Below, in pieces: positions 1,690 to 12,976 of a DNA stretch of 26,334 nucleotides (position 1 is its first letter; every line of letters begins with the position of its first letter). The position numbers and the translations under genes are program-made. The DNA is taken from the IMG/VR virus record IMGVR_UViG_3300030329_003943, positions 1,439 to 27,772 of that record; one strand, 5' to 3'. The DNA comes from a virus. A model generated the notes under the pieces. It ran no database searches. It was not told the DNA's origin and saw only the letters and a list, made by a program, of their open reading frames with translations.

Positions 1690-2343
1690 ATGGCTTTGAT
1701 CATATCGTGCGTCGCTCAGAAAGGCGGCGTGGGCAAATCGACGTTAGCGCGGCTGATAGCGCGTGAGTACGCCGCTAACGAGTGGCAGGTCAAGATTGCG
1801 GATATGGATCTGCAACAAGGCACCAGCTACAGTTGGCACCAGCGGAGGCTGCAAGCAGGTATAACGCCGGTGTTGTCCGTTGAGCAGTTTAATAGCGTCG
1901 AAAGTGCGTTGAGGGCGGCTCAAGCTGTCGATCTGCTCGTCTTCGATGGCGCTCCAGCCGCTGATCGCCAGACGCGTGAGATCGCCGCACAGAGCGATCT
2001 GGTCATCATCCCAACGTCGCTATCGCTCGATGACCTGGAGCCTACCGTGCGTCTGGCCCATGCGCTCCGGCAGCACTGCGACGCCAGGCGCTTGTGCTTG
2101 AGCCTTTGTCGCGTCGGCAACTCAAAACCGGAGCTAAACGAAGCCATCGAGTATCTGAATGAGACGCCCTACCACCTGCTGGCAGGACACCTGCTGGAAA
2201 AAACAGGGTATCGCAGGGCTTTTGACGCTGGCCGAGCAGCAACAGAAACGACGTTTTACAGTCTCAATGAAAAAGCTGATCAACTCGCTCAGTCTATCGT
2301 TGATCGCATCGAGGGTTCATATTCGGAGGTGGCAAATGGCTAA
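1690..2343 (+). CDS. parA: ParA-family partition ATPase
   Basis: 217 residues preceded by AAGGAGG at ideal distance. It has the deviant Walker A motif KGGVGKST (residues 11-18), the switch region ADMDLQQG (37-44) and a hydrophobic strand ending LLVFDGAP (82-89) for Walker B. It lacks an N-terminal DNA-binding domain, and the short length matches type Ib plasmid ParA proteins (ParF-like). These ATPases form ATP-dependent patterns on the nucleoid that move and space plasmid copies. The gene overlaps the following ribbon-helix-helix gene by 8 bases, the usual parF-parG layout. In a phage it suggests that the prophage is kept as a low-copy plasmid. Confidence 0.9.
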   Translation: MALIISCVAQKGGVGKSTLARLIAREYAANEWQVKIADMDLQQGTSYSWHQRRLQAGITPVLSVEQFNSVESALRAAQAVDLLVFDGAPAADRQTREIAAQSDLVIIPTSLSLDDLEPTVRLAHALRQHCDARRLCLSLCRVGNSKPELNEAIEYLNETPYHLLAGHLLEKTGYRRAFDAGRAATETTFYSLNEKADQLAQSIVDRIEGSYSEVANG

Positions 2344-2581
2344 GGCGCAAAAGCCCAAAAAAGGGGTGCCGCCAGGAGATGCGTTTCCTAGCTTGAAAGA
2401 GACGCGTCAGCCCAGCGCAGATTATGTGGGGTTAAATTTTAAAGTAACTAAGGAGTTCGCTAAAAGCTTTAAACAGGCGGCTCTGTTAGAAGATATGAAG
2501 CTGAATGAGTATCTCAGGCATCTGTTTTACCAAGCAGAAAACCAGAAAGACAAAAAGCCAGAAATACAGACAAGCGCATAA
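2336..2581 (+). CDS. Ribbon-helix-helix partition partner, ParG-like
   Basis: 81 residues starting at the ATG inside the end of parA, with GGAGG just upstream (2325-2329). A basic disordered N terminus (MAKAQKPKKGV) precedes a strand (YVGLNFKVT) and two helices (KEFAKSFKQAALLEDM and LNEYLRHLFYQ), the pattern of a ribbon-helix-helix fold. ParG and related centromere-binding proteins have exactly this architecture: a mobile tail that stimulates the ParA ATPase and a dimeric RHH that binds centromere repeats and represses the operon. Function is inferred from fold pattern and position. A longer in-frame version starting at 2159 would overlap most of parA and is unlikely. Confidence 0.75.
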   Translation: MAKAQKPKKGVPPGDAFPSLKETRQPSADYVGLNFKVTKEFAKSFKQAALLEDMKLNEYLRHLFYQAENQKDKKPEIQTSA

Positions 2582-2593
2582 TATATAATATGT

Positions 2594-2634
2594 AACCAAG
2601 AGAAAACATCTGTCAGGATGTTATCTTATTGGTT
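2594..2634. terminator. Hairpin between converging genes
   Basis: An interrupted inverted repeat: AACCAA (2594-2599) with TTGGTT (2629-2634) and AACATC (2605-2610) with GATGTT (2617-2622). It lies where the rightward partition pair and the leftward operon converge and overlaps the last codons of the leftward gene. There is no clear T run on either strand, so termination is plausible rather than shown. Confidence 0.35.
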
Positions 2635-2890
2635 CCTCCTGGCGCAACGGCAGCACGACGAGCCGGTAGGCGTCCGACAGTTGAATCCGGCGACGGTATT
2701 TTCCAGTGCCAGGCGTCAGGTAGCCCTTATACCGGAGTTCGCGCAGGACTCCGGTGACTGAGTTGGTCGACGTGTAGCCTAGTTGAGCCATCAGGTCGTG
2801 GTACGTCGGCGTCACTCTATGCTGTTCGATGTGGCTGATGATAGCGTCCATTAGGCGGCGTTGGCTCTTAGTGAGCGGTGGTAGGTTCAT
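2621..2890 (-). CDS. LexA-type winged-helix DNA-binding protein without peptidase domain
   Basis: 89 residues with AGGA six bases before the ATG. Residues 3-65 follow the LexA N-terminal domain closely: LTKSQRRLMDAIISHIEQH, then PTYHDLMAQLGYTSTNSVTGVLRELRYKGYL split over helix 2, the recognition helix and the wing. In LexA this domain binds SOS operators. Here the Ser-Lys peptidase domain is absent, so the protein cannot cleave itself and would not be SOS-inducible by the usual route. It is the last gene of the leftward operon and could regulate phage or host genes by competing for LexA-like sites; that role is inferred. Confidence 0.75.
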   Translation of the reverse strand: MNLPPLTKSQRRLMDAIISHIEQHRVTPTYHDLMAQLGYTSTNSVTGVLRELRYKGYLTPGTGKYRRRIQLSDAYRLVVLPLRQEEPIR

Positions 2891-2898
2891 CTAAAGTC

Positions 2899-3336
2899 CT
2901 ATCGGGTGTCGGTAGTCGTGTCGGCGGCGGCGGTGTAACCAGACGTATGCGGCAGCGACGAGAGCCACTGCCGGTATTGCCCAGGCGATAAATCGACCCA
3001 CGGTGCATCCTCACTTTTCAGATCGCAGATGGAGAGCGCATTAACGGCATCGCGCTCGACGGTGTATAAGACGATGACCATTGGCACTCGTAATGCCTGG
3101 GCTAATCGGCGCAGCTTACGACCGCTAAACTGATGCCAGATTCGGCTGGCGACAGCCTCTTTGACATCGTCGTCGATCTGGCCGGTCGTAGCGGCTGTAA
3201 GCTCGAGCACGGCGATGGGTAGCCCGTCACGATACTCGATCTGGTCGACGTCGTGTACTGCTCCGTGATCCCAGGTGTAGCGCCAGGCTTTGTAAGGCGC
3301 TGCTTTGTCGTTCCAGCCATGTCGTCGTTCTCTCAT
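2899..3336 (-). CDS. Unknown protein, possible PD-(D/E)XK nuclease-like fold
   Basis: 145 residues. The segment HDVDQIEYRDGLPIAVLELT (residues about 28-47) has the spacing of a PD-(D/E)XK nuclease core: an acidic residue, a strand turn, then a hydrophobic strand ending in Glu. The last position is Thr rather than Lys, so activity is doubtful. A basic helical segment follows (FSGRKLRRLAQAL), then another strand (VPMVIVLYTV). Phage operons for recombination often carry small resolvase- or nuclease-like proteins, which fits, but the assignment is weak. The start overlaps the stop of the gene upstream by one base. Confidence 0.6.
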   Translation of the reverse strand: MRERRHGWNDKAAPYKAWRYTWDHGAVHDVDQIEYRDGLPIAVLELTAATTGQIDDDVKEAVASRIWHQFSGRKLRRLAQALRVPMVIVLYTVERDAVNALSICDLKSEDAPWVDLSPGQYRQWLSSLPHTSGYTAAADTTTDTR

Positions 3337-3734
3337 TACTTTCTCTTAGCGGCTGCGCGACGACTTAATCGCCGCTTGTTGTCTGTTTCGTTCTCAATCT
3401 CGCTTATGATGCTTCTTATCAGCGCCTGGTCGTGCGCCATCACCTCGAGCACTTCGTAGTGCAGACGGCCTATGGTGCGCCGTATACGCGATCTGACGCG
3501 CTCTGGATCGAGGTCCAGCAGCAGGTGGTAGCAGGTGTCAGTCGTCAAGAACTGATACGCTATCACAGCACGTCGCAGGTGATGGTCACGCTCGTTGTAA
3601 AAGCGCGTGTCGTGCGCCGCTTCCAAACGCTTTTCTAAGTCGCGCCAGGCGTCATCGAGGACACCAGCCGCCAGCGCCGCATACGGGTCTGTTACGTTTC
3701 GACGCCAGGTGATGTTGCGCTTCTTCTCACCCAA
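3336..3734 (-). CDS. Unknown basic helical protein
   Basis: 132 residues, starting with TTG at 3734 with AAGGG six bases upstream; the ATG alternatives lie far downstream. The chain is highly charged and mostly helical (for example ERVRSRIRRTIGRLHYEVLE), ending in an Arg/Lys-rich tail (NKRRLSRRAAAKRK) that suggests nucleic-acid binding. It has no cysteine cluster or membrane segment. It is packed between coupled genes of the leftward operon. No family was recognised. Confidence 0.6.
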   Translation of the reverse strand: MGEKKRNITWRRNVTDPYAALAAGVLDDAWRDLEKRLEAAHDTRFYNERDHHLRRAVIAYQFLTTDTCYHLLLDLDPERVRSRIRRTIGRLHYEVLEVMAHDQALIRSIISEIENETDNKRRLSRRAAAKRK

Positions 3735-4170
3735 AGAGTTGCCCTTGGTCAGCCATTACGTCTGCGACGACGCGTGTTGCTGCGTCGTCCCACGCCGACC
3801 AGGTCTGATCCTGCTGGTTGTATTGAAACCCCGTCCTCATCAGCATCTTGTAGGTCGCTGGCGGTAGCTGCGCTGGTGGCCTGGCTTTGATCGTCAGCCT
3901 CTTCGCCGCTTCCGTGGGGTTTTCTTTGCGCTGCTGGTGGTCGTCGTTCTGGCGTTTGAGCCAGCGCACCTCCTCCTCGATTAGCTGGAGCAGCAGTCGG
4001 ACCTCCGGCGAGGTAGTCGACCCACCCGTATTCAGCCAAGCGGCCAGGCACGACGTCGCCCACTCCAGCGTCCGTGAGCTTGTTAAACTGCTCTTTTCGA
4101 TCTTGTGTTTTGAGACTAGCCTCGCTAATAACATCTCTGTCGTGTACTGCTCTGATACGCTGTCGGGCAT
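3727..4170 (-). CDS. Unknown protein overlapping the gene upstream in another frame
   Basis: 147 residues. The middle is an ordinary charged helix (LLLQLIEEEVRWLKRQNDDH) and the C-terminal part looks like a compact domain (KMLMRTGFQYNQQDQTWSAW followed by DDAATRVVADVMADQGQLF). Composition is protein-like throughout, whereas the competing frame over the same DNA becomes Pro/Gly/Arg-rich. So this frame is probably the coding one downstream of about 4080. It shares some 420 bases with the 218-codon frame that begins at 4405, with a weak ribosome site. It may be an independent gene or the C-terminal part of a frameshifted product. Confidence 0.55.
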   Translation of the reverse strand: MPDSVSEQYTTEMLLARLVSKHKIEKSSLTSSRTLEWATSCLAAWLNTGGSTTSPEVRLLLQLIEEEVRWLKRQNDDHQQRKENPTEAAKRLTIKARPPAQLPPATYKMLMRTGFQYNQQDQTWSAWDDAATRVVADVMADQGQLFG

Positions 4171-4405
4171 TCTTTACCATGTTTTCCAGTAGTTCACCGG
4201 CGCAGTGAAACGACGCACCGTCGGGTAGGTAGTAGGTATAGACCGCAAACTTGCGCTTACGGGTATGGAGCAGGTCATGCTCGTTGGCCGCGCCAAAGCT
4301 GTAGCCGTACTTGAGGTCGAGGTAGAGCGTGTGCTTTGAAAACCTCTCCAGGTCAAGCCCGTCGATCAGATCGATAGCCTCTTTGAGTGTGTTGGCAGTG
4401 TTCAT
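3749..4405 (-). CDS. Unknown protein; N-terminal half credible, C-terminal half doubtful
   Basis: 218 codons with an AGAGGG ribosome site before the ATG. Residues 1 to about 110 look real: a helical start (TLKEAIDLIDGLDLERFS), strands with aromatic residues (LYLDLKYGYSF, KFAVYTYYLPDGASFHC) and an amphipathic helix (ELLENMVKNARQRIRAV). From about residue 115 the sequence turns Pro/Gly/Ala/Arg-rich, typical of an out-of-frame read, while the +1 frame at the same place encodes a good protein. Either two genes overlap deeply, or a frameshift (programmed or sequence error) joins this N terminus to the 147-residue frame ending at 3727. No family was recognised. Confidence 0.5.
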   Translation of the reverse strand: MNTANTLKEAIDLIDGLDLERFSKHTLYLDLKYGYSFGAANEHDLLHTRKRKFAVYTYYLPDGASFHCAGELLENMVKNARQRIRAVHDRDVISEASLKTQDRKEQFNKLTDAGVGDVVPGRLAEYGWVDYLAGGPTAAPANRGGGALAQTPERRPPAAQRKPHGSGEEADDQSQATSAATASDLQDADEDGVSIQPAGSDLVGVGRRSNTRRRRRNG

Positions 4406-5372: not shown

Positions 5373-6830
5373 TCATCGCAGATGCTCTTGCGATGGCAGG
5401 TAGCGCAGCGCATCCGGTACACGAGCAGGAACGCTCGTACACTGGCCTGGATAGTCACGTTGCCGTTCAAAGAGGTTCGTCTTCTCGTAGATCCTGCATT
5501 CGGCATCGGCGGCTTTGTTTTCCAGGTCGCGTATCCAGGCGCGAGGCGGCTTAAATTCGGGTGTCTGCGACGATGAACTGGCACCGCCCAGCACCAGCCA
5601 GTCGAACATCTCCAAGCTTTTAAACTCCAGTGGCTCAAGTAGAGGTTCGCAGGATAGCCACTTGACCGGAGCTTCGATATGCTCAAACGCTTTCTCTGCC
5701 GCAGCGATCCGCGCCTGGGTGTCTACGGAGGTGCCGACCCAGGCGTTGTCAGGAAACGCAAACTGGGCCATGCGGCTGGGAAACTTGGTCAGAAAGAGGA
5801 AGTTCCACTCCGGTGCTGCGGCGACGACGGTAAGGACAGCTTCGATCCATTCGGTCGGCACCCACTTGCCAAAAAGGTCGGCCATAGAGCAGGTGAAGAC
5901 GTTCTTCTCGCCGATGTGTTTTTCGGCGGCGGCAGGCACCTGCATATTCTGCGGTGCGGTGAGGCGGTCGGGGTAGAAGACCGGCGCAAAGCGGTCGCCT
6001 GGCAGGTAGTCATAGAAGCGGTTGGCGATGTCGCGTGCGTAGCAGTAGGGGCAGTTGTGCTTACAGCCGGTAACGGGGTTCCATGTCCATAGCGCCCACT
6101 CGACATTGTCGTTGGTGCGATTGTACTTGTGATCGCTGTTGGTAGGCGTTAGCGCCGCCCAACGCTCTAATTCAGCGAGGTCCGACCAGGCATCGAGGGT
6201 GATGTAGTTTATCTCTGGCGGTGCCTTGTCGGGTGCTGGCGGCAAAGCCTCACGGGCGGCCTTATAACCGGCGTGTACCGACTTCTCCAGTTGTTCGCGC
6301 ACCGCCTGCGCTGCGTCCTCATCGCCCTGCTCCTCCAGCGTGTCGATGGCGGCGACAGCTTTAGTGGCCTTTTCTATCTGCCGACCGCTCTGGCCCAACT
6401 GCTGACCGGCGTGATCACGAGCTTTACCTTGTGGAAAATTTTCCACAAGGTTGGGCGTAAGATCATGTCGAGTGCCTGCTCGTCTCTTTGCTCGTTCTCT
6501 CTCGATGTCGAGTAGCAACTGGGCTTCGCGGCCTAACTGCTCGTTGGTCTTCTGGCGCTGACGATTGGCTTCGACGAGCGCCTCCTGAATCTTTAACTCG
6601 TCATCGGATTGAAAGATGTGTACCGGCACCGTCGGCATCGCCAACCGCTGGGCGGCGTGCCAGCGGCGGTGGCCGCTGATGATGCGGTAGTCGCGGGTGA
6701 TCAGCAGGGGCGTCAGCAAGCCCTTCTCGTCGATGCTGGCGACCAGTTCATCACTAGCCTGGTCAGCGTAGATGCGCTCGTTGTCAGGATGGGGCCGCAG
6801 CTTCTCTACGGGGCAATTAATCGTCTCCAT
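5373..6830 (-). CDS. ParB-like domain fused to a DUF5131 (phage Gp37/Gp68) three-Cys domain
   Basis: 485 residues with AAGGA before the ATG. Residues 1-110 are a ParB/Srx-type domain (VEKLRPHPDN, then the nucleotide-binding box ISGHRRWHAAQRL at 51-63). Residues 135-200 resemble the helix-turn-helix region of ParB proteins. Residues 240-470 are DUF5131: WNPVTGCKHNCPYCYAR with C256, C260 and C263 in CxxxCxxC spacing, then FTCSMADLFGKWVP (312-325), FLFLTKFPSRM (344-354) and WLSCEPLLEPL (391-401). The Cys spacing and motif order are those of radical-SAM-like proteins, suggesting an iron-sulfur cluster. The substrate is unknown. The partner methyltransferase TcmP lies directly upstream in the operon. 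The ParB part may target DNA or use CTP; this is inferred. Confidence 0.85.
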   Translation of the reverse strand: METINCPVEKLRPHPDNERIYADQASDELVASIDEKGLLTPLLITRDYRIISGHRRWHAAQRLAMPTVPVHIFQSDDELKIQEALVEANRQRQKTNEQLGREAQLLLDIERERAKRRAGTRHDLTPNLVENFPQGKARDHAGQQLGQSGRQIEKATKAVAAIDTLEEQGDEDAAQAVREQLEKSVHAGYKAAREALPPAPDKAPPEINYITLDAWSDLAELERWAALTPTNSDHKYNRTNDNVEWALWTWNPVTGCKHNCPYCYARDIANRFYDYLPGDRFAPVFYPDRLTAPQNMQVPAAAEKHIGEKNVFTCSMADLFGKWVPTEWIEAVLTVVAAAPEWNFLFLTKFPSRMAQFAFPDNAWVGTSVDTQARIAAAEKAFEHIEAPVKWLSCEPLLEPLEFKSLEMFDWLVLGGASSSSQTPEFKPPRAWIRDLENKAADAECRIYEKTNLFERQRDYPGQCTSVPARVPDALRYLPSQEHLR

Positions 6831-6842
6831 GCAGTGTCCTTT

Positions 6843-7634
6843 TTAAGGTAGTACCAGTTTTAATTGCTCGTATTGCTGTCGTTCATTTTCGGTGTAGTTC
6901 AGTCGGTGTAAAATGCATTGTCCTGTTGCGCTGCTGACTCGATGAAACCCTTCACTTTCGTACGTTGGATAATTCAGCCAGTTGCTACCCAGCAAAAAAG
7001 ACCATTGGTGCTGACCGTGAGGTTCACGTATGATCCATTGGTCTTTGTCGATATTGGATAACTCGTCGATCAACGTAGGCGTGGAACCGTTCTGCGCGGC
7101 ACGCTTGCGTTTGAGGTTAGTGGCCGATAAGTAGATGAGTAGGTCGATGCGCTTGTAGTGCGAGGCGAAAGCGGCCAGCAGGTTAAAAGGGGGTGCTACG
7201 CCACTGGGGTCAGCATACAGCAACCCATACTTTTTTCGGCGTCGCGGTAAGTTGAAAAAAGTGGGTAGAGTGTCGGTGTGATCACCAGAAATGGCTTGCA
7301 TTTGGCTGTTGTCGAGGGGGTTGTCGCAGAGGCACTGTTCAAGCGCAGCATGGTTAACCTTCTCGCGTTCGAGAAAGTAACCGGCAAAGCGCGTTGTCGG
7401 ATGTTTGGCCGCTAACGCATGGAAGATCAGCGGACTGCCAACCGCACCCGTTGGGTCGTGGCCGCATCCAGCATTTATGTCGAAATAGTGGTAGATAGGA
7501 TCGATCCAATCGCGGTTTTTAGGTTTGGCGGCGATGCTGCAAAAAAGACGATGATGCAGGGCCAGCAACTGCTCAAAATGCGTTTGCTTTTGGGGCGTGT
7601 GTTCGCCGTATCCTATGCCGTTTAGTTTACCCAT
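6843..7634 (-). CDS. tcmP: Three-Cys-motif partner protein (TcmP family), methyltransferase-like
   Basis: 263 residues. It shows an SAM-type nucleotide motif (YFDINAGCG, 50-58), a conserved GSPLIFHAL helix (66-73), a GD motif (117-118), and YADPSGVAPPF (140-150) followed by LLIYLSATNLKRK. This order is that of the TcmP family, named because it accompanies CxxxCxxC proteins of the Gp37/Gp68 type. The partner is the next gene in this operon, 12 bases away, so the expected pair is complete. The reaction and substrate are unknown; nucleic-acid or small-molecule methylation is the obvious guess. Start ATG 7634 lies two bases after the RusA stop. Confidence 0.75.
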   Translation of the reverse strand: MGKLNGIGYGEHTPQKQTHFEQLLALHHRLFCSIAAKPKNRDWIDPIYHYFDINAGCGHDPTGAVGSPLIFHALAAKHPTTRFAGYFLEREKVNHAALEQCLCDNPLDNSQMQAISGDHTDTLPTFFNLPRRRKKYGLLYADPSGVAPPFNLLAAFASHYKRIDLLIYLSATNLKRKRAAQNGSTPTLIDELSNIDKDQWIIREPHGQHQWSFLLGSNWLNYPTYESEGFHRVSSATGQCILHRLNYTENERQQYEQLKLVLP

Positions 7635-8958: not shown

Positions 8959-9014
8959 AGAAGCCTCTCTTTCTTAGACGATAGGGGTGGATTCTGGTGA
9001 TCGATTTCGATCAA

Positions 9015-9053
9015 GCCATCGCAGCGGTTGCAGCCGCTACGGTGGCTTTTTTT
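9015..9053 (+). terminator. Hairpin with T run on the plus strand
   Basis: GCCATCG (9015-9021) pairs with CGGTGGC (9040-9046) and AGCGG (9023-9027) with CCGCT (9034-9038), with one mismatch between them, followed by seven T (9047-9053). The T run lies on the plus strand although both flanking genes are on the minus strand, so it would stop rightward, antisense transcription. On the minus strand the hairpin directly follows the repressor stop. Confidence 0.45.
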
Positions 9054-9756
9054 ATTGCGCTTCGTTGCTGTTTATGACCCTGATAGCCCTCTTCCTAATT
9101 TTCGGTTTGTTGGTTGATGTATTAAAAACGTAGTCACGCTCTAGCTTAATTATTTCCAATGTTTGCAACGATCGGGTCTGCATCGCGTGGACTTGACCGG
9201 CGTGTTGGCGCTGGTCGTCTGGCCGCATCGCAAACGTAGTTTTAGTGAGCAACAGGATAGTGCGACCGCCATACAAATACGCGGACATCGGCACTAGCGA
9301 CACCGAGGTGTATAGCCGACGTTCTTTCTCATTTTCTCGTAGTTCCTCGCGCATAGTAAGTTTTCGCGTGTCTTGCTGGTCATGCGAAAAAAGATACTGA
9401 AGTGTATAATCTTCAGTAACATACTCGCTTATAGCCTTTCCAGCGTCGGGTCCGACGTAGAGCAGCGCAAGGAACCCGTGCAGCATCGTATCGACATCGT
9501 AGTGGCCCGTCAGGGGGGCGTATAGCTCTGTGTCGACGTCAATCAGATTCGCCAGCGTCATGTTCAGCGCAGCGGCAATCTGACTCATGTGCGCTAGGTT
9601 CAGATTCTTGAGTTCGCCTTTGCAGATCCGGTGGATATTCGGTCGGCTCAAACCGCAGGCGCTGGCAAACGATTCGACCGTGTGGCCCTGGCGGCTGATT
9701 AGACCGCGTACGCGCTGGCCGATCTGCTCAGATAGGGTGCTGCCGTTGGTTAACAT
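9052..9756 (-). CDS. XRE-family repressor, likely lysogeny regulator
   Basis: 234 residues from ATG 9756. An open frame continues to TTG 9795, but that extension contains the -10 and -35 of the promoter, so the shorter start is preferred. Residues 6-75 are a helix-turn-helix of the XRE type (LSEQIGQRVRGLISRQGHTV, ESFASACGLSRPNIHRICKG, then a fourth helix MSQIAAALNMTLANLI). The remaining 150 residues show no LexA-type peptidase motif, so induction by self-cleavage is not evident. It lies between the two leftward operons with a palindrome upstream, as expected for a CI-like regulator. Confidence 0.75.
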   Translation of the reverse strand: MLTNGSTLSEQIGQRVRGLISRQGHTVESFASACGLSRPNIHRICKGELKNLNLAHMSQIAAALNMTLANLIDVDTELYAPLTGHYDVDTMLHGFLALLYVGPDAGKAISEYVTEDYTLQYLFSHDQQDTRKLTMREELRENEKERRLYTSVSLVPMSAYLYGGRTILLLTKTTFAMRPDDQRQHAGQVHAMQTRSLQTLEIIKLERDYVFNTSTNKPKIRKRAIRVINSNEAQ

Positions 9757-9763
9757 GGGGTAA

Positions 9764-9792
9764 ATTTTACGCTCGACAGCGACCACCGTCAA
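9764..9792 (-). promoter_or_regulatory. Repressor promoter giving a leaderless transcript
   Basis: On the minus strand, -35 TTGACG (9787-9792), a 17-base spacer and -10 TAAAAT (9764-9769). The predicted start (about 9757) falls at the repressor ATG (9756), so the mRNA would have no leader. There is no ribosome site before this ATG, in agreement. The lambda cI transcript from PRM is a known leaderless parallel. Confidence 0.6.
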
Positions 9793-9803
9793 CAATTAAA
9801 AAG

Positions 9804-9817: not shown

Positions 9818-10061
9818 TTTTTCTGACACTAACCGCTGGCTAATCCAGCAGTGTTTTGCCTAAGAGTCCTATAAAGTTAGACTTATCTAAATATCGTCGT
9901 GACAAAACAACCGAAAATTCTGACACGATAATCGTGTTCAGTTTTTGCCATCTGCATACTGTCCAAGTGTTCACCACTAACTAACTATACATTATAACAG
10001 CGATTCGTGCAATCGGTTAATCGAATCTGGTTAAGCTCCGCGCTAGAAAAGTACTAGCGCA
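9818..10061. other. Intergenic region with several dyads and a weak rightward promoter
   Basis: No gene. It contains a hairpin GCTGG/CCAGC (9834-9848) enclosed by CACT/AGTG; a near-perfect dyad CTGACACGAT / ATCGTGTTCAG (9920-9941) followed by TTTTT; a possible plus-strand promoter TTCACC-17-TATAAC (9970-9998); an inverted repeat GATTCG/CGAATC (10002-10027); and a perfect stem GCGCTAG/CTAGCGC near 10040-10060. Its place between repressor and integrase operons suits an operator region and perhaps the phage attachment site. No core site can be named without the host sequence. Confidence 0.35.
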
Positions 10062-10103
10062 CAAAAAAAGCGACCGCAGCGAGTCGTTCTCGCCGCAGCC
10101 GCT
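10062..10103 (-). terminator. Strong intrinsic terminator of the integrase operon
   Basis: Read on the minus strand, a 15-bp stem (including G-U pairs) formed by 10089-10103 and 10069-10083 around a 5-base loop is followed by a run of seven T (10063-10069 as A on the plus strand). It sits 26 bases after the stop of the small XRE gene and would end the leftward transcript from 12492. Confidence 0.8.
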
Positions 10104-10114
10104 ATCCACTAACC
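10104..10114 (+). repeat. ATCCACTAACC element, copy 1
   Basis: One of four ATCCACTAACC copies in the window. It is followed by CTC, then AGGAGG (10122-10127) and an ATG-TAG start-stop pair (10138-10143), so on the plus strand it looks like a gene leader with no gene behind it. The downstream bases also form a hairpin (ACTAA.CCTC with GAGG.TTAGT). Confidence 0.6.
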
Positions 10115-10128
10115 CTCGACTAGGAGGA

Positions 10129-10356
10129 TTAGTCTGAATGTAGCATTTCCACCGCCGGACGCAACGCCAAAAGCACCTGCGCCAATCGCCTCGCCGGCCC
10201 AGGCACTTGGATCTCGCCTCTTTCCCAGCGGCCTACGGTGATGAGTGTGACGCCCATCGTCGAGGCGAACTGCGTCTGCGTCTGGCCCAGGTGCTGCCGC
10301 AGACGCCTGATGGCGTCGCCGTTCATCTCGTCAAGCTTGTCGTTGTCGAGCTTCAT
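10129..10356 (-). CDS. Small XRE-type helix-turn-helix protein
   Basis: 75 residues, with its ATG overlapping the integrase stop (TAATG) and AGAGGAGG upstream. Residues 14-65 form an XRE helix-turn-helix (GDAIRRLRQHLGQTQTQFAS, then TMGVTLITVGRWERGEIQVP), with the typical RWERG turn. Such short proteins beside integrases serve as excision or lysogeny regulators (Cro-, Cox- or YiaG-like); which applies here is inferred from position. It is the last gene of the operon, just before the terminator. Confidence 0.75.
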   Translation of the reverse strand: MKLDNDKLDEMNGDAIRRLRQHLGQTQTQFASTMGVTLITVGRWERGEIQVPGPARRLAQVLLALRPAVEMLHSD

Positions 10357-11312
10357 TATGCGTCCTCCTCTTGGTTTGGGTTAGTGGATGCGGCGACGCT
10401 ATCTATGTTGATGTAATCCGTCGCGTTGTCCTCAAGCCGGTTCCGGTCGTCGTAATACCTCATCGTCGTCTTGAGGTCGGCATGGCGCAGATGACCCTGC
10501 ACCTGTTGTGGCCTGGCACCGCCCTCCATCGCCATCGTAGCGCACGTATGCCGAAAGGAGTGGGCGGTGATGGATACACCGGCGCGGTCGCCGTAGTAGA
10601 CGGCCAGGTCGCGCACGGTGGCCTCGCGTAAGCGACCGCCGTAGTTGTTGTGGTTGATGCTGGTGTAGATGTAATCGCTTTCGATGCCAGCCTCGGTAGC
10701 CGCCTCGCGCCAGACCTCGATAGCTTCGACGACGACCGGCGCAAGTTTTACGTGCTGAATGACGCCGCTCTTGGTCGCTGGCAATAGCGCGACGCTGTGT
10801 CCAGCTTCGATAATCAGATCGGACCAGCGCAGTCCAGCCGCCTCGCCGCGTCTCAAACCGGTAAAGAGCAGCGTCAACAACAGCGCGTGATCACGCCGCC
10901 CCTTGAGTGCATTGCGATGGTTCTTAGCGTCTGCCAGCATCCGATCAATCGCATCGGAATCAATCGCCTTGCCGATGGCGACGCTATCGACCTTGAATCC
11001 TTTGACAACCGCCGGATCGGCTGGGCTGACATCGACGATCCGCAGCGCGATCAACCGCCGGAAAAAAGCTCTAATCGACGTCAGCTTTCGGTTAATCGTC
11101 GTCGGTTTACGACCGGCAGCGACGAGGTCGTTGCGATAGGTTTCGACGTCCTCGATGGTGACCGACTGCGCCTGGTCGACGGTGACGATAGCGGTGCCGA
11201 AAAACTCAGCCAGGTCGCTGGCGTAGGCCGTCCTCGTCGCTGGCCTCGTCTGAGCAGAGAGGAACGGCGCGACCAGGTCAGCCGCTGGATGGGGTAGGGT
11301 AGCGAGAGTCAT
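10356..11312 (-). CDS. int: Tyrosine recombinase (phage integrase)
   Basis: 318 residues from ATG 11312, chosen because it overlaps the preceding stop by four bases and has AAAGGA upstream; a longer in-frame start at 11345 adds an Arg-rich stretch inside the neighbour. Residues 10-95 are the SAM-like core-binding domain. Residues 118-290 are the catalytic domain, with all active-site residues visible: R154 (TGLRRGE), K181 (TKSG), H251 and R254 (HSFRH), H277 (RHADLKTTMRYY) and Tyr286 as nucleophile. It is of ordinary length and intact. It would catalyse integration between attP and a host attB, which sits oddly beside a partition system. Confidence 0.93.
   Translation of the reverse strand: MTLATLPHPAADLVAPFLSAQTRPATRTAYASDLAEFFGTAIVTVDQAQSVTIEDVETYRNDLVAAGRKPTTINRKLTSIRAFFRRLIALRIVDVSPADPAVVKGFKVDSVAIGKAIDSDAIDRMLADAKNHRNALKGRRDHALLLTLLFTGLRRGEAAGLRWSDLIIEAGHSVALLPATKSGVIQHVKLAPVVVEAIEVWREAATEAGIESDYIYTSINHNNYGGRLREATVRDLAVYYGDRAGVSITAHSFRHTCATMAMEGGARPQQVQGHLRHADLKTTMRYYDDRNRLEDNATDYINIDSVAASTNPNQEEDA
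10379..10389 (-). repeat. ATCCACTAACC element, copy 2
   Basis: Minus-strand copy inside the last codons of the integrase, 23 bases upstream of the XRE gene start, followed by AGAGGAGG and its ATG. It is therefore placed like a leader element of the XRE gene. No good -35/-10 pair lies upstream. Confidence 0.6.
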
Positions 11313-11494
11313 TCGGCACCGTCCTTTCCAAGCTCTGCGACGCATTCGGCGCGGAGGTCGTCGACGAGGCTATCCAGTTCAGCCTCGTATTGGGTATGGA
11401 TGGCCGACCGCAGCGACGGGTTCACCTCGCGCTGGTAGCTGCGGTAGAGCGTTTGGATGCTGACCAAGTCGGCTAAGATCTCCTGTTTATTCAT
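11309..11494 (-). CDS. Unknown 61-residue acidic helical protein
   Basis: Starts at ATG 11494 with GGAGGG eight bases upstream; its stop overlaps the integrase start (ATGA). The chain is helical and acidic (MNKQEILADLVSIQTLYRSY, later YEAELDSLVDDLRAECVAEL) with no membrane segment. It may be an integrase accessory protein by position. No family was recognised. Confidence 0.6.
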   Translation of the reverse strand: MNKQEILADLVSIQTLYRSYQREVNPSLRSAIHTQYEAELDSLVDDLRAECVAELGKDGAE

Positions 11495-11496
11495 TG

Positions 11497-12255
11497 TTAG
11501 CCCTCCACCGTCGCGTTATCAGCTCGGCGCAGTTCGTCGCGCAAATATTCGCAAAACCCGACTGCGCCGGTGATGGTGCAGCCTTCGCCGGTCGCGTAAT
11601 CAACCATCGCAGCGGCAATCGTCTCTATATCGTCGTCGTCGCTATCGGCGGTGAGGCCGTACTCGTCGCAAGGGTCGATGCCCTGCATCCAGTCCTCGAC
11701 TGCCATGACGCCATGCGAGTCGGTCAAGCGGTCGGCGCACATCCGTTCGACGTCACCCCCAAAGTCACCCGCGTCGGGGTCTTTTTCCAGCACCGCAGCA
11801 ACCTCGTCTAACAGCGTATTAATCTCATCCGCTGTCAGATGCGGCGAAATCGAATACCGCCGCCGCTTGCCGTTCCAGACGCTCTCCGGCACACCGCCGC
11901 CGATCTCGCCGCTGTAGTCGGCGCTCAACTCATCAGTAATCGAGTTAAATTCGATGAACGCCGGTTGGGTCGTCAGTTGGCCGTCGTACTGGACCCAAAG
12001 CGGGTGTAGTCCTTCTTCTTCGTCATCCAGATGCTGGACAACAATCTTATACTCTTCCGCAACGATCTCGCGATGCGATTGATCGTTGTGGTCGCGCTCG
12101 ATAATCTGAGTCTCGTCTGCGCTAATTTCGAGATACCGACCTTCCAAAGCGCAGTCCTCCTTTTTAAACATTTGAAGGACGCTCTTCAAAAACTCGAACG
12201 TGCTGGTTTCGGGGTCGCCGTAGTGGTCGCTGACGACTTTGTATAACGTAGCCAT
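11497..12255 (-). CDS. Unknown acidic protein
   Basis: 252 residues, strongly acidic, with GAGGAG nine bases before the ATG. The central part (PLWVQYDGQLTTQPAFIEFN, then ADYSGEIGGGVPESVWNGKR) resembles a segment I associate with uncharacterised proteins of plasmids and mobile elements near antirestriction genes; this is recollection, not a search. The C-terminal third is a helical acidic domain (VDYATGEGCTITGAVGFCEY). High acidity could indicate DNA mimicry, as in ArdA-type proteins, but the characteristic motif is not visible. Confidence 0.6.
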   Translation of the reverse strand: MATLYKVVSDHYGDPETSTFEFLKSVLQMFKKEDCALEGRYLEISADETQIIERDHNDQSHREIVAEEYKIVVQHLDDEEEGLHPLWVQYDGQLTTQPAFIEFNSITDELSADYSGEIGGGVPESVWNGKRRRYSISPHLTADEINTLLDEVAAVLEKDPDAGDFGGDVERMCADRLTDSHGVMAVEDWMQGIDPCDEYGLTADSDDDDIETIAAAMVDYATGEGCTITGAVGFCEYLRDELRRADNATVEG

Positions 12256-12257
12256 GA

Positions 12258-12446
12258 CTAGTACTCCTCGCCCAGCGACCGCACTTCGCGGTCAATAGAC
12301 ATCTGATCAGCGGTTGCCTCGCCCAACTCCTGACGGGTATGGCGGTAGCGGTTGGCATCGGTCAAACCTAGCTGCCGGTCAATAGCGTCAGCCTCGCGCT
12401 CTAATCGCGCCAGCTTCTTTTCGACGTCCTCAAGTATACGTGCCAT
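12258..12446 (-). CDS. Short coiled-coil protein
   Basis: 62 residues, first gene of the leftward operon, with AAGGAG six bases before the ATG. Residues 1-30 form an amphipathic charged helix (MARILEDVEKKLARLEREAD), followed by a second helix with many Arg and Glu. The leader of its transcript starts with ATCCACTAACC and contains two GGATCC words that can pair as a hairpin (12459-12480). Function unknown. Confidence 0.55.
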   Translation of the reverse strand: MARILEDVEKKLARLEREADAIDRQLGLTDANRYRHTRQELGEATADQMSIDREVRSLGEEY

Positions 12447-12491
12447 GCTGCTCTCCTTAGTTGTGGATCCGAAATGGATCCGGTTAGTGGA

Positions 12492-12528
12492 TGCAAGTAG
12501 TATACAACAATATGCTACATGTTGTCAA
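12492..12528 (-). promoter_or_regulatory. Leftward promoter of the integrase operon
   Basis: Minus strand: consensus -35 TTGACA (12523-12528), 18-base spacer, -10 TATACT (12499-12504). The expected start at 12492 is the first A of ATCCACTAACC (12482-12492). The spacer shares TAGCAT and flanking bases with the divergent promoter at 12738. Confidence 0.8.
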
Positions 12529-12541
12529 GACTTTTTTTTGC

Positions 12542-12614
12542 TAATCCAATCTAATTCAATCTGCTCTATCTAATCTAATCCAATCCAATCTAATCCAATC
12601 TAATCTAATTCAAG
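12542..12614. repeat. Tandem pentamer repeat (T/C)AATC
   Basis: About 14 units of five bases, mostly TAATC and CAATC with a few variants (TAATT, one TGCTC-TATC interruption), next to an eight-T run. It lies between two divergent promoters in an A/T-rich stretch. It could be an iteron array, a DNA unwinding element or binding sites for the ParG-like or XRE proteins. It encodes nothing. Confidence 0.7.
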
Positions 12615-12737
12615 TGCGGCCAGTGCTGTCGTGGTAGGGCTAAATGGCGTATTTACAGGGTCATGCGCCAGTCCGACGACGACGGCTAAACGTCGATGGT
12701 AAACGTCGATTGTTTGGCGAATGGAGAAAAAAAGATG
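12615..12737. other. Intergenic region with an 11-bp direct repeat and a hairpin
   Basis: Two copies of TAAACGTCGAT (12687-12697 and 12700-12710) are spaced 13 bases apart. Upstream, TGGCGTAT (12645-12652) pairs with ATGCGCCA (12663-12670), allowing one G-U. No open frame with a ribosome site was seen. The direct repeats lie 28 bases before the rightward -35, a good place for a regulator site. Confidence 0.4.
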
Positions 12738-12772
12738 TTGACAATATATAGCATTATGGTATATTGAATGTA
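12738..12772 (+). promoter_or_regulatory. Rightward promoter of the zinc-ribbon/Gp88 operon
   Basis: -35 TTGACA (12738-12743), 16-base spacer, -10 TATATT (12760-12765). The predicted start at 12772 is again the first A of ATCCACTAACC (12772-12782). The leader continues CTC, then GGAG (12791-12794), to the ATG at 12803. Confidence 0.75.
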
Positions 12773-12802
12773 TCCACTAACCCTCAACCTGGAGTATCTA
12801 TT

Positions 12803-12976
12803 ATGTATCAGCATTTTAGTTTGATAGACGGCGCCGAAGAATATTTTTCGCGCAGTCTTTGCGACGTTTGCAAGACTTGGCTAGCTGGCGGTCGTTACGA
12901 CGCTACTGCACTAGACAACAACGACGACGTCGTCGAATTGTCGTTGTGTGTTGATTGCTTGCTGGAGGTGATGTGA
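12803..12976 (+). CDS. 57-residue zinc-ribbon-like protein
   Basis: ATG 12803 follows GGAG and the promoter; an in-frame start farther upstream would begin inside the -10 box. Two CxxC pairs (C20/C23 in LCDVCKTW and C49/C52 in LCVDCLLEV) are separated by a 25-residue acidic loop, as in small zinc ribbons. It may bind nucleic acid or protein. Its stop overlaps the next start by one base (TGATG). No specific family was recognised. Confidence 0.65.
   Translation: MYQHFSLIDGAEEYFSRSLCDVCKTWLAGGRYDATALDNNDDVVELSLCVDCLLEVM

Follow-up and report, generated by a model that had tools for sequence, protein, structure and literature searches.

Immunity based on antisense RNA has been described in a handful of enterobacterial phages. 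The CI RNA of the satellite phage P4 is processed from the transcript that it regulates, and acts by premature termination. In the temperate phages P1 and P7, heteroimmunity involves the antisense RNA c4, whose loops are complementary to sites around the ribosome site of its target (PMC12197685), and the autoregulatory sRNAs OppZ and CarZ are derived from 3' UTRs (PMC9438474). The locus described here lies in a 26,334-nucleotide stretch of viral DNA (positions 1,439 to 27,772 of IMG/VR record IMGVR_UViG_3300030329_003943), which we refer to as the window. It very probably encodes a phage antisense sRNA that is targeted to the starts of two divergent early mRNAs and represses both operons, as judged from sequence analysis. 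To our knowledge, it is unusual for two divergent operons to carry such a target exactly at their +1.

The repeated element and the divergent promoters

The 11-letter element ATCCACTAACC is present in four exact copies, at 10104-10114 (+), 10379-10389 (-), 12482-12492 (-) and 12772-12782 (+), as a first-pass annotation of the window had reported; 0.02 copies are expected, four or more were reached in 0 of 100 shuffles, and a scan of the 27,772-base IMG/VR record identified no further exact copies. Two strong promoters, each scoring 11/12, diverge from one common intergenic region: TTGACA-18-TATACT leftward (12499..12528, -) and TTGACA-16-TATATT rightward (12738..12765, +). The earlier observation that the first A of the element is the seventh base after the -10 holds at both, and this A is the predicted +1 (12492 on the minus strand, 12772 on the plus strand). 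At the start of the leftward operon the target site is AUCCACUAACC (12482..12492, -; site L), which is identical in the relative L007, and at the start of the rightward operon it is AUCCACUAACCCUC (12772..12785, +; site R). The first leftward gene, taken from the open reading frame list, codes for 62 aa (12258..12446, -) with its start codon 46 nt after the +1; the first rightward gene codes for 57 aa (12803..12976, +) with its start codon 31 nt after the +1, and has homologues in L064 and L030.

Three of the copies are in the sense orientation relative to transcription, at the leftward mRNA 5' end, the rightward mRNA 5' end and the int/HTH junction (10389). The last of these (10379..10389, -) is at the end of the gene for a tyrosine recombinase of the phage integrase type (10356..11345, -; Pfam PF00589, 3.4e-23), precedes the ribosome site of a gene for a 75-aa Cro/CI-type HTH protein (10129..10356, -; Pfam HTH_31, 2.7e-07), and has one mismatch in L007. 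The fourth copy, 10104 (+), is on the strand opposite its transcript, between the HTH gene stop codon and an intrinsic terminator, and should therefore be transcribed as its complement. The four copies of ATCCACTAACC are accordingly assigned different roles, with that at 10104 a predicted antisense copy within the leftward transcript. The annotation had placed a ribosome site and an ATG after all four copies, which does not hold for 10104: the ATG there is followed directly by TAG, the 'GGAGGA' is the complement of the anti-Shine-Dalgarno loop described below, no promoter precedes the copy, and the GC-rich terminator upstream reads from the other strand.

Two further types of repeat were seen in this region. 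A palindrome-like sequence, TATAGCATTATGGTATA, lies between the -35 and -10 of both promoters (12744-12763, +; about 12500-12520, -), with related repeats in relatives, such as TGTATACACAGTATACA in L043; these are probably repressor operators that form a second layer of control. Between the two divergent promoters, at 12541-12610, are tandem CTAATCCAATC-type repeats, with equivalents at the same place in relatives (AATCTAATC, TAATCAAATTGA) and long arrays in L075 (5786-5920); they could represent an origin, a partition site or a repressor array. Elsewhere in the window (1690-2581 and 5373-6830) a ParA-like ATPase precedes a small DNA-binding-type protein, and a ParB_N/DUF5131 protein is also encoded; the ParA-like ATPase and the ParB_N/DUF5131 protein together with the integrase possibly indicate a phage-plasmid.

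The candidate antisense RNA and its targets

We infer an antisense RNA of about 69 nt that extends from about 10130 to 10062 on the minus strand (10062..10130) and abuts the 3' end of the HTH gene. It is predicted to consist of a first stem-loop (SL1) with an anti-Shine-Dalgarno loop, a single-stranded toehold, and a terminator hairpin with a U tail. The predicted fold of the 69 nt has an energy of -35.8 kcal/mol, and the 76-nt stretch 10060-10135 forms two hairpins with z = -6. The intrinsic terminator (10069..10103, -) has a 15-pair stem, a 5-nt loop and a T-run. At the 10104 copy the leftward RNA reads GAGGGUUAGUGGAUA, a perfect complement of 14-15 nt of the rightward mRNA 5' end and of 11 nt of the leftward one; the antisense seed GAGGGTTAGTGGATA (10103..10117, -) is perfectly complementary to TATCCACTAACCCTC at the rightward 5' end (12771-12785), the two places forming a 15-base direct repeat (10103/12771). 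The free toehold, AGUGGAU, complements nucleotides +1 to +7 of the mRNAs at their predicted starts, and UCCUCCU, an anti-Shine-Dalgarno sequence partly within the SL1 loop and partly next to it (10122..10128, -), has as its cofolding partner the AGGAGGA or GGAG of the targets.

Cofolding of the sRNA with each of the three targets in the window predicts two separate contacts, one between the seed and the 5' end and one between UCCUCCU and the Shine-Dalgarno sequence, with gains of -24.9, -16.6 and -22.5 kcal/mol compared with about -4 for shuffled targets; the gain of -22.5 kcal/mol belongs to the third copy (10379-10389), for which shuffled targets give -4.9. Judged on duplex energy alone, site L does not stand out, 612 of 8,766 windows being equally good. 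The suggestion of the first-pass annotation that a shared mRNA 5' end is the target of a small RNA is thus strongly supported, with the 10104 copy, read from the opposite strand, as the partner. The partners that it had named fared less well: pairing with the RNA at 1002-1156 amounts to -13 to -14 kcal/mol, less than 1 sd away from shuffled sequence, and pairing of the element with the 16S anti-Shine-Dalgarno sequence to 0.2 and -2.6 kcal/mol. A sub-threshold match to Rfam ctRNA_pGA1 (25.5 bits, against a gathering threshold of 45) was noted at 9003-9056 (+), at the end of a second HTH gene (9052-9795).

A possible sRNA promoter, TTGCGT-16-TACATT with a TG extension (10137..10164, -), places the +1 at 10130; it is weak, 14% of shuffles being equally good, and the corresponding promoter is weak by consensus in every phage taken singly. 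When 150 upstream bases were scanned in each sequence group, the +1 of the best promoter fell 26-32 nt upstream of the terminator stem in 8 of the 11 groups (P ~2e-6 in a rough binomial model). Such recurring promoters with the +1 at the base of SL1 weaken the idea of a purely 3'-UTR RNA. They also bear on an alternative in which there is no separate sRNA, and the complement in the 3' UTR pairs in cis with the 5' end of the leftward mRNA that carries it or with the HTH ribosome site, controlling translation or decay. The antisense copy does lie in the int-HTH 3' UTR and is complementary to its own 5' end and to the HTH leader, and 3'-UTR sRNAs that control their own operon exist (OppZ; PMC9438474). 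However, the longest complementarity (14-15 nt) is with the separate rightward mRNA, several relatives match the rightward mRNA only, and promoters at the SL1 base recur in most groups, and we regard a purely cis interaction as improbable.

Matched seeds in related phages

A scan of IMG/VR with the promoter plus the exact element as query yielded only one relative phage, present as two near-identical contigs (L007 and L008), each with both divergent copies. Nucleotide identity with the window is 77-93%, and both +1 copies are exact despite diverged promoter spacers; the antisense copy is also kept in L007, and L008 ends before that position. In L005, also of the close relative, int and the HTH gene are separated by additional genes (6921-7476), and the third copy (ACCCACTAACC) precedes the ribosome site of an inserted gene.

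A wider set of relatives was assembled by alignment of terminases (68 contigs) and of integrases (80 loci, with L079-L099 in the same group). With the exception of the close relative, these lack ATCCACTAACC in the roles described; the layout is the same and the letters differ. Their elements are AGCTGTTAACCTA, ATCTATTAACCT, ATCACACTC, ATCATATTACC, TAACCTTTCACC, ACCATTTA and ATCATTCACC, and each predicted sRNA matches its own mRNA starts. L064/L079 carry AGCTGTTAACCTA and AGTTGTTAACCTA at the two +1 sites, and the complement follows the HTH gene, ahead of a terminator. The phage's own sequence likewise recurs at both 5' ends and in the antisense in L046/L085 (ATCTATTAACCT and ATCTATTAATCT), L088 (ATCACACTC and ATCACACTT), L084 (ATCATATTACC and ATCATATTACT), L090 (TAACCTTTCACC and TAACCTTTCACT) and L022/L097 (ACCATTTAAT and ACCATTTAGT). 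A second set matches on the rightward side: L095 and L043/L045 (with ATCATTCACC and ATCATTCACT in L095 and L043), and L092-94, in which L092/L094 have a partly repetitive CATTCATC-type site and L093 has CACCATTCA; no clear site was found at the leftward 5' end in L092-L095 and L043. L098 has a partial match only.

The SL1-toehold-terminator architecture is common to 14 relatives, and all groups combine an SL1 and a U-tailed terminator hairpin with a short seed, most of which is unpaired or belongs to the 3' arm of SL1. Among L082-L088 the terminator hairpin is nearly identical and the seeds are different, fitting their own leaders where leaders are present. In L092, L093 and L094 the SL1 loop (UUUGCUCCC) is complementary to ribosome sites of the AGGGAGCAA type at several other genes, which suggests that the predicted sRNAs of this subgroup may have additional targets. 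L052 has three near-identical leaders (CAAACCAGAGGAGGATTACCCATG) before different genes (2545-4335), and a partner RNA was not found there. No relatives of the control region or of the HTH protein were found in annotated phage and plasmid collections, and GTDB genomes gave only distant integrases, with no prophage and no member of the phage group from which a host could be assigned.

The match between seeds and leaders was evaluated by comparing each sRNA with each leader across about nine sequence groups. In duplex energy, cognate pairs average -22.7 kcal/mol for L and -25.7 for R, and non-cognate pairs -13.5 and -13.3, respectively. Cognate pairing beats all permutations, at 1/40,320 (L) and 1/362,880 (R), values that include several leaders located through the match itself; the subset free of that bias, comprising only leaders located by promoter score, gives 1/5,040 (L) and 1/24 (R). 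Seed-target complementarity is thus maintained by covariation, as expected of a trans-acting base-pairing sRNA. Departures from complementarity at +1 to +12 were counted on a wobble-blind alignment. Of the transitions, 14 leave a G-U pair in place and 3 disrupt it (P = 0.006, somewhat optimistic since a few leaders were picked by a G-U-tolerant search); the 23 transversions mostly fall past the paired core or occur in L098/L092, where the match is poor. RNA pairing, unlike a DNA-binding site, is expected to produce a G-U bias of this kind.

These data also weigh on the view, raised as an operator at +1 in the first-pass annotation, that ATCCACTAACC is a DNA element bound by an HTH repressor, the integrase or an initiator at both +1s and near the terminator. 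Sites are present at both promoters, two HTH proteins are encoded nearby, and protein specificity and sites could likewise co-diverge. Nonetheless we consider a DNA element very unlikely: ATCCACTAACC is not palindromic, both promoters already have a separate palindrome-like repeat between their -35 and -10, the fourth copy is at a terminator rather than a promoter and always antisense in every phage group, the G-U-keeping differences between copies answer to no requirement of a DNA site, and the common sRNA fold is left unexplained. An antitermination site of the nut/put type has the nutL/nutR geometry in its favor, with a single RNA element closely following each of two divergent early promoters, yet the sequence changes freely among relatives provided that the 3'-UTR complement changes too, no boxA/boxB-like conserved element was seen, and the antisense copy has no explanation, making such a site highly unlikely. 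DnaA boxes or origin iterons can be dismissed almost entirely, since the noted likeness of TATCCAC to part of the TTATCCACA consensus does not extend to the flanking bases, which fail the TTATNCACA consensus in all four copies (the invariant block begins ATCCAC, is preceded by T or C, and has T rather than A after CAC), and is contradicted by elements of relatives that are not DnaA-like, such as ATCTATTAACCT and ATAACCTTTCACC.

Proposed mechanism and comparison with known RNAs

The trans-acting sRNA would be produced from its own promoter and/or from the 3' end of the leftward operon, directly behind int-HTH. Its single-stranded toehold, AGUGGAU, would pair with the first seven nucleotides of both divergent early mRNAs; pairing would next invade the first hairpin (GAGGGUU with AACCCUC), freeing UCCUCCU to cover the Shine-Dalgarno sequence. 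Translation would be blocked for the rightward operon, the leftward operon and, through the third copy, the HTH cistron, and the mRNA would probably be exposed to decay as well. The sRNA would act alongside transcriptional repression through the palindrome-like repeat between the -35 and -10. Repression of translation of both early operons and the HTH cistron is most likely its function, and the adjoining HTH and integrase genes suggest a role in the lysogeny decision or in superinfection immunity; we infer both the repression and the service to lysogeny or immunity.

The best reading of the sequence differences is that sRNA specificity diversifies between phages in the manner of c4/CI RNA immunity. 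More tentatively, with less than even confidence, we propose a family of immunity RNAs in which one sRNA of about 70 nt silences both divergent early operons at their first dozen nucleotides, and in which seed and targets co-diversify to give RNA-defined immunity groups. The combination, in an uncultured metagenomic phage group, of one RNA architecture and at least eight distinct seeds, each of which fits its own mRNA 5' ends, makes the evolution of sRNA-target specificity and of RNA-defined heteroimmunity readable from sequence, and testable by seed swaps.

Among described RNAs, FinP of F-like plasmids (RF00107) has a similar plan of two stem-loops, with an anti-Shine-Dalgarno sequence in SL1 and a U-tailed terminator as SL2. 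The window RNA aligns to FinP over all 76 positions (30.8 bits, E 0.022 over the window); this score is below the gathering threshold of 45 and five relatives give no match, and membership of the FinP family was rejected. FinP is cis-encoded opposite its target, whereas the window sRNA is at 10130-10062 and its targets are at 12492 and 12772. No ProQ/FinO protein (PF04352) was found in the 27.8-kb record, which is possibly a fragment, and a host could supply one. As with OppZ and CarZ, an RNA at the 3' end of an operon would pair with its own operon, but the window sRNA has a further match in the divergent operon and apparently a promoter of its own.

The likeness to c4 lies in complementarity to the target leader, including the ribosome site, which is seen here, and in a specificity that differs between related phages; the window had no reported Rfam match to c4. 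However, c4 controls one gene (ant), and the window sRNA, trans-encoded behind int-HTH, fits two divergent operons exactly at their +1 ends. Like P4 CI, it would be a small stable phage RNA complementary to leaders and a basis of RNA immunity, but it is predicted to be separate and terminator-ended, with sites at the +1 next to the Shine-Dalgarno sequence. RNAs of the c4/CI type are processed from the transcript that they control, upstream of the target gene, and the window sRNA is instead at the end of the int-HTH operon. In its predicted action the window sRNA resembles c4 of P1/P7 and P4 CI, yet it stands outside any described family.
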